DNA of 64,000 nucleotides from Neopararhizobium haloflavum (GTDB lineage: Bacteria > Pseudomonadota > Alphaproteobacteria > Rhizobiales > Rhizobiaceae), in assembly GCF_002750855.1 (NCBI RefSeq), contig NZ_NWUC01000004.1:248001-312000 (forward strand), written 5' to 3'. The translations under genes were made by a program, and so were the position numbers. Numbering within the stretch: position 1 is the stretch's first letter; every line of letters begins with the position of its first letter. The notes under the pieces are model-generated. The model was not told the origin of the DNA and did not search any database. It was given only the letters and a program-made list of their open reading frames with translations. Positions 414 through 12,573 of the stretch are shown here, one piece after another.

Positions 414-1613
414 TCAGCCTTTTTGCTGCGCCAGGCCTTCTGCCAGGAAGGTCTGCAGCAGCGCGCCGACATCCGCCTCCACGACCTCCTCGGGAACGTC
501 GGCAAAGGCGCCTGCGACGATTGTGCGAATGGTCGCCTCATCCATATCATTCTCAAGCAGGTTCCACAGGCCGAGGCCCAAGGTGTTGAGATGATGGATC
601 TTGTCATTTCGCTGGTCGACGAGAAAGGCGCTGTCGCCGACCACGCGGACCGCGACCTCGTCGACACGCCGATATACTGGCATATCCGTTGCAGGCGTCG
701 GCCAATCGAAACCGGACGCCGATGCCGATTGCCGGCGCGGATCACTCCGGGCCAAAATCTCGGTCGCTGGCCAGGTGGAGAAGCCTTCCTCCAGCCGTGC
801 TTGCGCATCCGATATGTCTGAATAGACCAGCCGATAGACGGCAAGATGTGCCAGCAGGTCCAGATAGGCATCGAGCATGCACTGCGCCGGAACCTCGCTC
901 GTGTCCTGCACAAGCAACCGCGTCAACCCATCTTCAAGAGCCACAGGTTCGAGACGGGCCGCGCATGGCTGGTCGGACCGTTCCAGCAGAACGATGGCAC
1001 CGATCGACGCTTTCTCTCCATGCTGGACGCTCCGTCCCTTCGTTGCCGAGAGAAACGCATAGTAGCCATCAGTGACCTCGGTATGGGATTCGACATACCG
1101 CTTCAGCCGCTCAGGCGCGCCATCCGGCAACGGCAATCGGATACGCGGCAGACAGCCTGACGCCACGCCATCTCCAGTTTTCAGATCGATCGGCAGAAGA
1201 TCATCGCTGAACACCCGCCGACCATCAGCGGCACACGCGCTGACCAGTGTCGATTTGCCGGCGCGATTCGTCGCGGGAAAGACGACCAGGCGGCCGCCGA
1301 ACTCTACCGCTGCCGCATGCAGATTGCCGATTGATTGCACGTTGCGGACAAAAGCGGCCATCAATTCCACGATGATCGTGCAGATCGCGCTCGTCGTGCT
1401 CGGCTCACTTCGGGTCTCGCCGGACGGTTGGCGCCGAACGATCACATGGTCCGGGGTCCCTGAAACGGTGAGGAACGGTTGATCGAAGGGCATGTCGGCG
1501 GGATCAACCTGCGGCCAGCCTACCAGGACGGTGCGCAAGTCATCGGCAATGCGGCTGACATCGGGATCGATGCCGATGGGAGCCGGCAATCCGCGAAAGC
1601 AACAAAGTTGCAT
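414..1613 (-). CDS. HprK-like kinase fused to a C-terminal PqqD domain
   Basis: 399 residues from this start. Residues about 100-290 form an HPr-kinase-like fold: LHAAAVEF, a P-loop N-R-A-G-K-S-T at about 115-122, and a downstream FSDD acidic motif at 135-138. Residues about 310-399 look like PqqD, with a typical DSAFLVD strand, HHLNTLG and a helical tail. PqqD domains bind leader regions of ribosomal peptides, and HprK-like enzymes in lasso-peptide loci phosphorylate their peptide. The natural substrate is inferred to be the Gly-rich protein encoded 90 nt upstream. An in-frame ATG at 1649 would sit 2 nt after a strong hairpin; the ATG at 1613 has AAGGA about 10 nt before it, so I chose that. 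The precise reaction is unknown. Confidence 0.75.
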   Translation of the reverse strand: MQLCCFRGLPAPIGIDPDVSRIADDLRTVLVGWPQVDPADMPFDQPFLTVSGTPDHVIVRRQPSGETRSEPSTTSAICTIIVELMAAFVRNVQSIGNLHAAAVEFGGRLVVFPATNRAGKSTLVSACAADGRRVFSDDLLPIDLKTGDGVASGCLPRIRLPLPDGAPERLKRYVESHTEVTDGYYAFLSATKGRSVQHGEKASIGAIVLLERSDQPCAARLEPVALEDGLTRLLVQDTSEVPAQCMLDAYLDLLAHLAVYRLVYSDISDAQARLEEGFSTWPATEILARSDPRRQSASASGFDWPTPATDMPVYRRVDEVAVRVVGDSAFLVDQRNDKIHHLNTLGLGLWNLLENDMDEATIRTIVAGAFADVPEEVVEADVGALLQTFLAEGLAQQKG

Positions 1614-1651
1614 CGTTCCGTTGTCCTTCCGATCTCGTCCCCAAGTCATGC

Positions 1652-1678
1652 GGGGAGCGCCGCACAGCCGCGCTCCCC
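1652..1678 (-). promoter_or_regulatory. Hairpin between the Gly-rich gene and the kinase gene
   Basis: An 8-bp perfect GC-rich stem (GGGGAGCG with CGCTCCCC) and 11-nt loop lie in the 90-nt spacer. There is no T-run, so simple termination is unlikely. It could stabilise the 3' end of the upstream message or lower kinase expression relative to its presumed substrate. Confidence 0.45.
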
Positions 1679-1703
1679 TTGCCGTTACATGCTCCGTCTT
1701 TGA

Positions 1704-2207
1704 TCAGCGGCGCAATACGTCGCCCATGGCGTTGCCCATGCTGCGGCCGAAGCTGCCGAGCGTCTGTGGGCCGCGTCCACCGGAGCCGCCGCCCCAGCCG
1801 CCTCGCCCGCCCGAACCGCGGTTGCCGCCGCCGAAACCGCCACGTCCGCCCGAGCCGCCATTCGAGCCGCCGCCGCCGAAACCGCCGCGTCCACCAGAAC
1901 CGCCGTTCGAGCCGCCGCCACCGAAGCCGCCGCCATTGGAGCCACCGCCGCCAAAACCGCCGCCATTCGAACCGCCGCCGCCGAAGCCGCCAGAGCCGCC
2001 GCCGCCGTTGGAGCCACCACCGCCGCCCGATCCACCGCCGCCGGACCCGGAGGCGCGTGCCTGGCGGATGGTGAGCAGAGTGGGTGCGGTGTAGGCCGCC
2101 GCCGCGGTCAGGCCGAGAATGCCGAGCATTTTGCGCCGGCTGACAGTCTTCTCCACGGCACCCGACGCATGGTCGGCACTGTTGTGTCTGTTCTTCTTAT
2201 CCGACAT
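1704..2207 (-). CDS. Tat-exported Gly/Ser/Asn-rich repeat protein, candidate modified peptide
   Basis: 167 residues. The N-terminus is hydrophilic, then a twin-arginine motif SRRKMLG (23-29), a hydrophobic stretch and a conserved-looking APTLLTIRQARA segment with a possible cleavage site after residue 52. Residues 53-145 are almost only Gly, Ser and Asn with some Arg, Phe and Trp in repeats such as GGFGGGGSNGG and GGSGGRGG. The C-terminal 22 residues (from GPQTLGS) are non-repetitive. The start is set by GAAGGAG 8 nt upstream; the frame stays open further 5' but without a better start. Next to a PqqD-fused kinase it fits a ribosomally made, post-translationally modified product. It might instead be a structural cell-wall protein. 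No homologue is recognised by name. Confidence 0.75.
   Translation of the reverse strand: MSDKKNRHNSADHASGAVEKTVSRRKMLGILGLTAAAAYTAPTLLTIRQARASGSGGGGSGGGGGSNGGGGSGGFGGGGSNGGGFGGGGSNGGGFGGGGSNGGSGGRGGFGGGGSNGGSGGRGGFGGGNRGSGGRGGWGGGSGGRGPQTLGSFGRSMGNAMGDVLRR
1765..2049 (-). repeat. Glycine-codon tandem repeat array inside the Gly-rich gene
   Basis: On the plus strand the array reads as runs of CCGCCGCC with CCGAAGCCGCC-type units. It encodes near-identical blocks of 9-14 residues (GGFGGGGSNGG, SGGRGG). The near-identity of neighbouring units suggests recent unit duplication, so length may vary between strains. Confidence 0.7.
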
Positions 2208-2418: not shown

Positions 2419-2931
2419 TCAGCGGGTGAGATTGTCGATCGGAAAGATCGCGCATGTCTCCGTCCCGTGCGCCAGCAGCTTGCCATTGGCGTCGCGCAGG
2501 AACGCCTCGGACGTCGCGATCGTCCGGCCGCGATGAACGAGATTGCCCTCACAGGTAACCTCGCCCATGTCGGCGAAGAGCGGACGGGTGAGATTCACCT
2601 TGAACTCCACGGTCGTGTACCCCTCGCCCGGTGCCAGCGTCGTCATGATGCAGCAGGCGAGCGCGGAATCCATGATCGTCGCCGTCCACCCTCCGTGCAC
2701 CGCACCGAGCGGATTGAGATGCTCCGCATTGGGGTTGCCTGAAAAGACAACTCTTCCCTCATCGACCTCGCTCAGGGCAAAATCCAGGGTTTCGGCAATC
2801 GGCGGGTTGGGAAGCTCACCGGCAAGGATGGCACGCAGGACGTTCAGTCCTCCCTCCCTTGCCACGACCGACAATGGAATGGTGCCGTAATGCAGCGTAC
2901 GGCGTCTTGCAGTGGTTGCACCCGATGTCAT
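2419..2931 (-). CDS. PaaI-family hotdog thioesterase
   Basis: 170 residues. The core [10 protein letters not shown] at about 72-81 followed by a long hydrophobic helix is the hotdog-fold acyl-CoA thioesterase signature; the strand [11 protein letters not shown] fits the family. It presumably hydrolyses acyl- or aryl-CoA esters in the cytoplasm, but the substrate is unknown. It is translationally coupled to recO through an ATGA overlap (2928-2931), so it is the distal gene of the acpS-lepB-rnc-era-recO run. The C-terminus is complete. Confidence 0.85.
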
Positions 2932-3716
2932 GGAGCGGCCTTTTCGGTCGGGGACACGGGATGTGTCCCGGTCGTTTCATCAGCGAACTTTTGCCGAGCC
3001 TTGAGCGCGGCCGCGACGAAGCCGTCACGCGCGGTGGGGCGGGTCAGACCCCGCGGACCATAGATATCGCGGTCGAAGAAATATGCGGTCATGCGGAAAG
3101 CGGCTGCGAGCTCTTGCGCATCGGCAGCCTCGGCCCTGCCGCGAAGCAGAAACGGTGGCAGCGCGAAGAGGCGATCGGACCAGGGTGCGCCGACATGGTC
3201 CACCACGGCCCGTCCCGTCTTTGGCGAAACATAGGCCAGCCGATCGCGCGCGCCCGTGACGGCACACGCCGCCAGATCAAGGCCGAAGCCCAGTTCATCG
3301 AGCATGGCCAGCTCGAATCGCACGAAAAGCTCGCCGGCCTCGTGCGGTGCATGGAGGCTCTCCAGAATGATGTCCATGGCCTCGAACAGTCGCTGATGGG
3401 GATCGCGCTCGGGCAGGAGACGCAAGAGAGCCGCCATGGCCTGCACGCCGTAGACGGATGTCGCGTTCTCCATCAGACGGGCAGCGCGCAAAGCCAGCGG
3501 CTCGACCTGGTACATGCCGAGATGTTCGTCGAGACGGGCGCGCCACGTCACTTCGACGACATTGCCCGGCTGAAGCACCGGCTGCATACGGCGCGAGCGC
3601 CCGCCGCGCACGAGGCCAAGATGGCGGCCATGGCCGTGAGTCATCACCTCGGCGATGACGCTGGTCTCTCCATGGCGTCTGACGCCGAGCACGATGCCGC
3701 GATCGATCCATTCCAT
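2928..3716 (-). CDS. recO: DNA repair protein RecO
   Basis: 262 residues, normal length for RecO. The N-terminus [20 protein letters not shown] starts the OB-fold that binds single-stranded DNA; the rest is helical. RecO works with RecR to load RecA on SSB-coated gaps. It sits right after era, its usual place in Hyphomicrobiales, with an 18-nt gap, and overlaps the thioesterase start by 4 nt. The four-cysteine zinc site found in some RecO proteins is not seen here. Confidence 0.93.
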
Positions 3717-11832: not shown

Positions 11833-12573
11833 ATGATTGCAGACACGATCCAAGCGAGGCCGCGGACGGCTGTGTTCGCCGCCCTTCTTGCAGCACCTTT
11901 CCTCTTTTCTTCGACCACGCTCGCTCAGGATGTCGGCGTTTCCGTCGGCGGCATCGACGCAGGCGTCTCGGTCGGCAGTGACAATGGCGGCCTCGGGGCC
12001 GGCGTCGGCGCATCGGTCGGCGGCAGCGATGGCGTCAACGCCGGTGTCGGCGCAAGCATCGGCGGCGGAGGCAGCGTCGCCGATGTCGGTGCCGGTGCTT
12101 CGATCGGCGGCAGCAGCGGTGTGGATGCTGGCGTCGGCGCGACCGTCGGCGGCGACAGCGTGGCTGATGTCGACGCTGGCGTATCCATCGGCGGCAGCGG
12201 CGGCGTAGACGCCGATGTCGGCGCGACCGTTGGTGGTGACAGTGTTGCCGATGTCGATGTTGGCGTCGGGATCGGCGGCGGCGGCGGTGGCGGCATCATC
12301 GGAGGCGGCGGTGGCGGCATGGACGGCGACGGCGACGGTCCCGGCAATGGCGGCAACCCCGGCGACATGGGAGGCGGCGACATGGGCGGCGGAAACATGG
12401 GTGGCGGCGACATGGGTGGCGGCGACGGCGGCCCGAATGGCATGGGCCGCCCCGGCAACATGGGCGAGATGTCAGCCGAAGCCATCATGGCTCGGGAGTG
12501 CCGGGGCATGATTTCGCCTCGGGCGCCCGGCGCGGCGCGCATCGTTGCCGACTGTCAGGCCATGGATCGCTGA
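11833..12573 (+). CDS. Secreted Gly/Val/Ala/Asp repeat protein of unknown function
   Basis: 246 residues with a good GGAGG site. A Sec signal peptide of about 32 residues ends in TTLAQD. Residues about 33-155 are imperfect repeats of roughly 20 residues built on GVDAGVGATVGGDSVAD. They alternate Val/Ala with Gly and place Asp or Asn at turns, suggesting a beta-solenoid. Residues 155-215 are poly-Gly with Met/Asp (GDMGGG units). The final 35 residues carry two cysteines (ARECRGM, VADCQAM) that could form a disulfide. It may be a surface or matrix protein. Nothing in it shows enzymatic activity. Confidence 0.7.
   Translation: MIADTIQARPRTAVFAALLAAPFLFSSTTLAQDVGVSVGGIDAGVSVGSDNGGLGAGVGASVGGSDGVNAGVGASIGGGGSVADVGAGASIGGSSGVDAGVGATVGGDSVADVDAGVSIGGSGGVDADVGATVGGDSVADVDVGVGIGGGGGGGIIGGGGGGMDGDGDGPGNGGNPGDMGGGDMGGGNMGGGDMGGGDGGPNGMGRPGNMGEMSAEAIMARECRGMISPRAPGAARIVADCQAMDR
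11929..12290 (+). repeat. Tandem coding repeats in the secreted repeat protein
   Basis: Units of about 57-66 nt contain the recurrent core GGCGTCGGCGC-(A/G)-C-(C/A). The encoded consensus is close to V-D-A-G-V-G-A-T-V-G-G. Repeats near 12123-12190 and 12190-12260 are the most alike, pointing to recent duplication. Confidence 0.65.

Follow-up and report, generated by a model that had tools for sequence, protein, structure and literature searches.

Export signals and the leaders of ribosomally synthesized and post-translationally modified peptides (RiPPs) are usually regarded as distinct. The gene pair analysed here, which lies in a stretch of 64,000 nucleotides of Neopararhizobium haloflavum (contig NZ_NWUC01000004.1, positions 248,001 to 312,000 of the forward strand; the whole stretch is called the window), encodes a precursor headed by a twin-arginine (RR) type export signal, which resembles signals of the twin-arginine translocation (Tat) pathway, and a kinase in which an HprK-like domain is fused to a PqqD domain. 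Its closest described counterparts are the LPP RiPPs and the phosphorylated lasso peptides. According to PMC13381572, the LPP RiPPs are restricted to Bacillota and use an HprK-like kinase, a discrete PqqD-type recognition element and one to three precursors with a conserved N-terminus, a variable C-terminus and a YxxPx(V/L) leader motif; in the LPP and lasso pathways the PqqD-like elements grip YxxP by means of an Asp that holds the Tyr and an Asn close to the Pro, and the HprK-like kinases of RiPPs phosphorylate Ser, in some cases repeatedly. The phosphorylated lasso peptides of the paeninodin type, as PMC10368454 presents them for BsfA and BsfK, likewise combine an HprK-like Ser kinase with a PqqD-type B1 protein, and the BsfA leader carries YxxPxL. 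Export signals that double as the leader of a modified precursor are known from the bufferins and other MNIO RiPPs, and the available portion of PMC12452194 calls signal-peptide leaders of RiPPs highly unusual, describes those of the Sec type, states that MNIO enzymes mostly modify Cys, and does not contain the words Tat, twin-arginine or kinase.

The system of the window shares with LPP the type of kinase, the PqqD-type element, the motif class and the contrast between a constant N-terminus and a variable C-terminus, and probably also processing of the signal-peptidase type; some of its members lie in a polysaccharide neighbourhood, as LPP clusters do (PMC13381572). It differs in that the recognition element is fused to the kinase in 38 loci and split from it in others, the leader is an RR-type export signal, the tails are Ser-containing repeats, and the fuller LPP leader consensus is not shared. 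In contrast to the phosphorylated lasso peptides, its substrate is an exported protein, long and of low complexity, and its signal is of the RR type where the bufferins have Sec signals. The same pair of domains is found in the HPr-rel-A system (NCBIfam TIGR04352/TIGR04353; HprK-related kinase A and PqqD_rel_X); membership of that system was rejected, with the window kinase scoring 41.2 bits against a TIGR04352 cut-off of 200 and ten scanned proteins of its relatives also below the cut-off. An earlier note on this DNA, made from the sequence alone, had known of no named system with this pair, a statement that has to give way before the LPP RiPPs (PMC13381572); no paper on the exact leader and kinase pair was found in the open-licence literature, among the matches listed. 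By analogy, we infer that in its recognition and kinase steps the pair works as the LPP or phosphorylated lasso pathways do. It is a small two-gene system scattered over many bacteria, whose members were found mostly in Proteobacteria, and we consider it probable that it is a minimal, leader-guided protein-phosphorylation system in which the leader is the export signal.

The earlier note had described the locus as a two-gene unit of a Tat-like Gly/Ser-rich open reading frame (ORF) and an HprK-PqqD fusion, and this description holds: both ORFs are present (Table 1), the domain matches agree, and the pair is kept in all three congeners. The substrate begins with SRRKMLGILGLTAAAAYTAPTLLTIRQARA, which precedes its tail, and is laid out as a polar N-terminus, SRRKML, a hydrophobic stretch closing with AYTAPTLLTI, ARA/SG and the tail. 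That its Gly-rich frame is coding is indicated by the differences between congeners over 49 leader codons, which are synonymous in 17, 9 and 15 cases and non-synonymous in 1, 0 and 1; by codon comparison, the leader of this substrate is under strong purifying selection. From the alignment, the probable start of the kinase is the ATG at 1613, which gives a protein of 399 residues. Intergenic stems of at least 8 bp occur in 18 of the 32 fused loci examined; their sequences often differ and are common to close relatives. A promoter scan found no signal exceeding those of shuffles, and the next ORF downstream of the kinase lies on the opposite strand and is, by eye, the last part of a frame resembling a transporter.

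Table 1. Features of the substrate and kinase locus. Positions are those of the window; residues are numbered within each protein.
Feature	Position	Strand	Basis
Substrate (precursor) ORF, 167 aa, leader and Gly/Ser-rich tail	1704..2207	-	Kept next to the kinase in 3/3 congeners; purifying selection on leader
Leader core of 33 residues, VSRRKMLGILGLTAAAAYTAPTLLTIRQARASG	2046..2144	-	Row 1 of alignment A2
Twin arginine, residues 24-25	2133..2138	-	Sequence
YTAPTL, the YxxPxL recognition motif within the signal region, residues 39-44	2076..2093	-	Sequence
Ala-Arg-Ala, residues 50-52; predicted signal-peptidase cut after residue 52	2052..2060	-	Sequence
Tail (core), 115 residues, of which 68 Gly and 15 Ser; presumed site of phosphorylation	1707..2051	-	Sequence; Ser recurrence in 56 tails
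Hairpin with 9-bp stem between the substrate and kinase genes; may attenuate transcription or stabilise the mRNA	1652..1678	-	
HprK-PqqD fusion kinase, 411 aa	414..1649	-	
HprK-like kinase core, residues 109-287; H111, GKS131-133, DD149-150	789..1325	-	NCBIfam match; PDB profile matches to HprK; residue census
PqqD / RiPP recognition element domain, residues 342-406; N355, D393	432..626	-	Pfam; PDB profile matches; pocket map

A search across genomes with the single kinase protein returned no matches, and an alignment-based search was used instead. It gave 34 loci with record titles, mainly from Alphaproteobacteria and also from Halomonas, Guyparkeria, Oxalobacter, Paenalcaligenes and a Desulfobulbus; L048-L050 among them are distant HprKs without the leader. 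With duplicates removed from the tallies (L001-L006, L016, L017, L038, L051 and L052) and close relatives counted separately, there are 38 loci with a fused kinase. A leader ORF adjoins the kinase in 37 of them, upstream in 36 and downstream in L013, and the last one, L044, sits at a contig edge with its upstream DNA missing. The earlier note had named as damaging to its proposal the case that relatives of the fusion rarely lie beside such ORFs; the opposite was found. Besides the kinase, no neighbour occurs in more than three of 16 groups of fused loci (ORF clustering on crude ORF calls, E 1e-8), so that a conserved third gene was not seen at this resolution. The SipW-like leader peptidase, NTP (nucleoside triphosphate) transferase and MsbA-like exporter of LPP, and the macrolactam synthetase (lasso cyclase) and B2 protease of the lasso pathway, are not among the neighbours shared by these groups, for which no models specific to peptidases, transporters or the lasso enzymes were run. 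Genes for extracytoplasmic function (ECF) sigma factors and S8 peptidases recur near the fused kinase in a subset of loci only.

The kinase was matched in seven of 41 related genomes, the source genome included, one being a broken copy (G026) and one a weak partial match (G034). Strong leader matches (E < 1e-5) are present in six of the 41, five of them with the kinase; in the sixth, G014, the leader lies at bases 237-329 of its contig and the kinase was not found. The source genome holds a second copy on contig C10 (L012). It comprises an S8 peptidase headed by this leader, a short leader protein rich in Ser and Gly, and a kinase with 32% identity to that of the window. By eye, with no model run, this copy (L012, 9021-14790) adjoins ORFs resembling topoisomerase IB, Ku and ligase D.

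The co-occurrence of leader and kinase was determined in two surveys, in both of which related genomes are taken as independent. Among the 385 genomes of the class survey, with thresholds set after looking (leader E <= 1e-5, kinase E <= 1e-18), 33 hold both, two the leader only, two the kinase only and 348 neither (Fisher 6e-43); the kinase of G144, at E 1.5e-18, fails the threshold, and L019 lies in G268. When the 15 genomes that supplied profile rows are left out, the corresponding numbers are 18, 2, 2 and 348. In the phylum survey of 398 genomes the class thresholds were fixed beforehand, with the kinase profile A5 replacing A1; eight genomes hold the leader and 11 the kinase, all eight leader genomes have both and none the leader only (Fisher 1e-14). 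The three kinase-only genomes are all weak matches (E about 1e-19), and three of the eight leader genomes (G000, G068 and G199) are shared with the class survey. Because the leader ORF adjoins nearly all fused kinases and the two profiles co-occur in both surveys, a chance pairing of substrate and kinase was rejected. Gly-rich exported proteins are common, which would suit an ordinary Tat protein beside an unrelated kinase, and that explanation has, in the face of this adjacency and co-occurrence, a negligible probability.

Kinase and PqqD are encoded by separate genes in seven genomes (G068, G126, G250, G257, G338, G340 and G418), and there the leader ORF and the kinase share a contig, about 25-42 kb apart. 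By eye, the stretch of G126 (L145-L146) resembles an exopolysaccharide or polysaccharide locus, and that of G068 (L142-L144) does so less clearly. Three class genomes hold further split HprK/PqqD proteins (L069, L071 and L073) that score below all NCBIfam cut-offs, and G056 has more than one HprK match; these proteins are a family without a curated name.

The element common to the leaders, which the earlier note did not mention, is a YxxPxL motif inside the signal region, and we regard it as the key element of the system. The constant positions are RR, LG and Y-x-x-P-x followed mostly by L and also by V, I, M, F or A. The motif starts 15 residues past the first Arg, and an Arg stands at -15 from the Tyr in 55 of 58 alignment rows; these rows were chosen by a pattern requiring YxxP, include one spurious row and omit the genuine leaders of L029, L047, L053 and L057 (four of the seven ORFs that are weak under a stricter pattern). 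The two Ala of the A-x-A columns are kept in 45 and 43 of the 58. With a pattern for RR and its flanks that does not require YxxP, 36 ORFs were recovered in 33 of the 38 fused loci, and all 36 have YxxP at the expected place; among the remaining loci, L013, L029 and L045 have YxxP with RR, L023 has YxxP without RR, and L044 is cut off.

The window substrate has the RR motif, the hydrophobic stretch and the A-x-A of a Tat substrate, and its host has TatC. It is not among the 27 matches of the NCBIfam Tat signal model in the source genome, where two relatives within the system score 16.6 (17.4 with neighbours) and 14.2 against a cut-off of 16.7. From these 27 matches 16 signals could be parsed and 11 could not; two of the 16 belong to the system, both with YxxP, and L098 and L121 are the same signal, which leaves 13 distinct ordinary Tat signals, none of them with YxxP. 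A profile of the 33 leader columns matches the source genome three times at E <= 0.1, namely in the window substrate, the S8 peptidase of C10 and the short protein of C10.

The leader is portable: subtilisin-like (S8) peptidases whose linkers contain Ser are headed by it as well, and the genes of some of these peptidases lie apart from the kinase. The leader profile also matches, in all three congeners, an ORF that resembles the L012 peptidase and lies far from the kinase, and for this reason the leader seems to act in trans. In the Oxalobacter locus L023, AYASPALMQL is kept and RR is absent; TatC was not found in that genome or in 12 of the 13 genomes of its genus, only one of which has the kinase, and TatC is present in the genomes of Paenalcaligenes and Desulfobulbus, where the leaders do have RR. 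This uncoupling from Tat was seen once, and the completeness of the assembly concerned is not stated. In the Kiloniellales-type loci L021, L022 and L025, one ORF each carries the leader segment far from the N-terminus; in L021 and L022, which were inspected in full, that ORF has its own N-terminal hydrophobic stretch, plus RRKALARLGLEDGTPYESPVLLTLSQAQAASG or a near copy deep in the protein. The hydropathy of these three internal segments is 0.31-0.44, compared to a median of 1.61 for 57 leaders. Since the PqqD pocket is kept, Oxalobacter retains the motif without RR, and L021 and L022 use the segment internally, our analysis suggests that YxxPxL is a handle for the enzyme, beyond its being part of a Tat signal.

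Among the kinase models of NCBIfam, HprK-related kinase A fits the window protein best (residues 109-287, E 1e-10), and PqqD is matched in Pfam at residues 342-406 with E 5.8e-8, above the curated cut-off. An AlphaFold2 model of the fusion has a predicted local distance difference test (pLDDT) score of 90.8. In the census of active-site residues, H111, G131, K132, S133 and D150 are present in 30 of 30 proteins and D149 in 29, and the alignment to the HprK structures 3tqf, 1ko7, 1jb1 and 2qmh runs without gaps from the His to the Asp pair (E 2.8e-4 to 4.1e-3). A VIA-align comparison gives a phosphoenolpyruvate (PEP)-carboxykinase-like fold; HprK itself is not among the 50 matches it lists, which has no bearing against a relation to HprK. 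L032, which contains masked letters, was left out of the fold alignment. The PqqD domain matches the PDB profiles of TbiB1, PbaB1, LppB and TfuB1, with E-values of 2e-4 to 5e-3 for 5v1u, 9x90 and 9x8z and 0.03 for 6jx3. When the LppB pocket is mapped by sequence alignment, D70 corresponds to D393, an Asp in 29 of 30 proteins, and N33 to position 355, which is Asn in 19 and Asp in 11; the other pocket sites are mostly hydrophobic, with 352, 357 and 385 variable.

The tails vary in type and include GGSGG, SYSRPSYSRP, PSEPSEP, SEMSEMS, SRDSRKSRDS and others. Over 56 tails, a set that omits the spurious ORF L035:1115 and ORFs with more than 300 residues past the motif, the median content is 21% for Ser (minimum 4%), 19% for Gly and 2% for Thr, and three tails are low in Ser. 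Since many tails are not rich in Gly, Gly-richness was dropped as a defining trait and counts as a local one; the residue that recurs is Ser. The proposal of a PqqD-guided kinase acting on a Tat-type substrate thus survives from the earlier note as the best reading of the adjacency and co-occurrence; its Gly-rich product does not, as the tails are Ser-containing sequences of low complexity and the reading does not require Gly.

The comparison of sequences establishes a conserved pair, its motif, its catalytic and pocket residues, the co-occurrence of leader and kinase and the portability of the leader; from these a mechanism can be proposed. The PqqD domain would grip YxxPxL as it does in the recognition elements of the lasso and LPP pathways, present the low-complexity tail to the kinase and hide the signal from the Tat translocase. 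The fused kinase would then phosphorylate Ser residues of the tail. Binding of the leader would precede and gate export, and the leader would be released after phosphorylation; the protein would next be exported by Tat, with signal peptidase cutting at Ala-x-Ala. The intergenic hairpin may hold the substrate in excess over the enzyme. What results would be a low-complexity protein, phosphorylated on Ser and either secreted or periplasmic, for which a role such as metal binding or matrix formation is a guess.

Some observations weigh against phosphorylation guided by YxxPxL or give it no support. The full Walker A motif GxxGxGKS is lacking, and P(N/A/S/E/G)xxRAGKS is present instead. Under translation table 4 the window DNA reads as one chain, because substrate and kinase are in frame with a single stop between them, and in the AlphaFold model of this read-through residues 24-54 are helical, in blocks with pLDDT of about 77-86, and do not take the extended form of a bound leader; contacts are not measurable in this model, and helices are a frequent rendering of signal peptides, so that the model does not support a bound leader and does not count against one. 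A caution comes from BsfA, which was still phosphorylated after its Y, P and L had been replaced by alanine (PMC10368454). The unusual Walker A, together with the PEP-carboxykinase-like fold and the few tails with little Ser, would fit a fusion that binds the same leader and performs another ATP-dependent modification, or phosphorylates the leader itself, with the Ser-rich tail as a consequence of an extracellular linker or adhesive function. This is unlikely, though we give it some weight: the catalytic residues of HprK are kept at the spacing of the HprK structures, and the HprK-like RiPP kinases tested, LppK and BsfK, phosphorylate Ser according to PMC13381572 and PMC10368454.

Tat redox enzymes have maturation chaperones, and on their model the fusion could be a chaperone or proof-reader of the signal peptide, in which PqqD shields the signal, the ATPase part drives release and the substrate stays unmodified. 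The motif does sit in the hydrophobic region of the signal and is absent from the ordinary Tat signals parsed; however, Oxalobacter keeps enzyme and motif where TatC was not found, the segment is used in the interior of the protein in L021 and L022, and the catalytic Asp pair is conserved, all of which make this account improbable. We hold as slightly less improbable, and still quite unlikely, a proteobacterial branch of LPP in which a small product acting as a signal or inhibitor is cut from the tail, for example by an S8 peptidase. The enzyme types and the motif class are those of LPP, the split enzymes of G126 lie in an apparent exopolysaccharide locus, as LPP clusters do (PMC13381572), and an S8 peptidase adjoins kinase and substrate in L012, L047, L149 and L150. 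Nevertheless, the dedicated leader peptidase, NTP transferase and exporter are not seen as widely shared neighbours of the fused kinases in the clustering of crude ORF calls, and the tails, which are long, variable and full of repeats, do not resemble a defined core.

Several loci show variations of their own. An extended architecture with a divergent ECF-type sigma factor, an S8 peptidase with the leader, a short leader ORF and the HprK-PqqD kinase is found in a Shinella plasmid (L149, 1882-6245), a Paracoccus marcusii plasmid (L150, 1295-4942) and Devosia (L047, 2868-7152); L149 and L047 also have a zf-HC2 anti-sigma match, weak and below the Pfam cut-off. In the P. marcusii plasmid the substrate frame is broken inside the leader and no gene is listed (L150, 3239-3700), which may be a sequencing error or decay. 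L014 (8495-9382) holds a broken HprK-PqqD remnant with one in-frame stop, and no leader ORF was found adjoining it; from this remnant, the pair may perhaps be lost together. In L013 the substrate downstream of the kinase (2685-3452) has a tail that closes with a PepSY-like domain, at 23.2 bits against a Pfam cut-off of 24, and is followed by ORFs that by eye resemble a response regulator and a sensor kinase. Elsewhere in the window, at 11833-12573, a signal-peptide-like ORF contains 84-bp tandem repeats encoding units of the D(A/V)GVGASIGG type and a Gly/Met/Asp-rich end; it has no match in Pfam or NCBIfam.

Taken more broadly, we lean modestly towards a pathway, widespread in Proteobacteria, that has a RiPP recognition motif embedded in its RR-type export signal. 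A single segment of 30 residues would serve first as the handle for the enzyme and then as the ticket for export, and the fused kinase would use it to phosphorylate, at multiple sites and before export, Ser-rich tails on secreted proteins that are otherwise unrelated, among them subtilisins encoded at other loci. If true, this would be a RiPP-type system with an RR/Tat-type signal as its leader, and the range of the HprK-type peptide kinases would reach beyond small natural products to proteases and low-complexity proteins that are secreted. In RefSeq plasmid records the kinase is annotated as "PqqD family protein" and the Shinella substrate as "hypothetical protein"; genes annotated in this way would gain a name that bears a function, and bacteria would have a counterpart of secretory-pathway phosphorylation.

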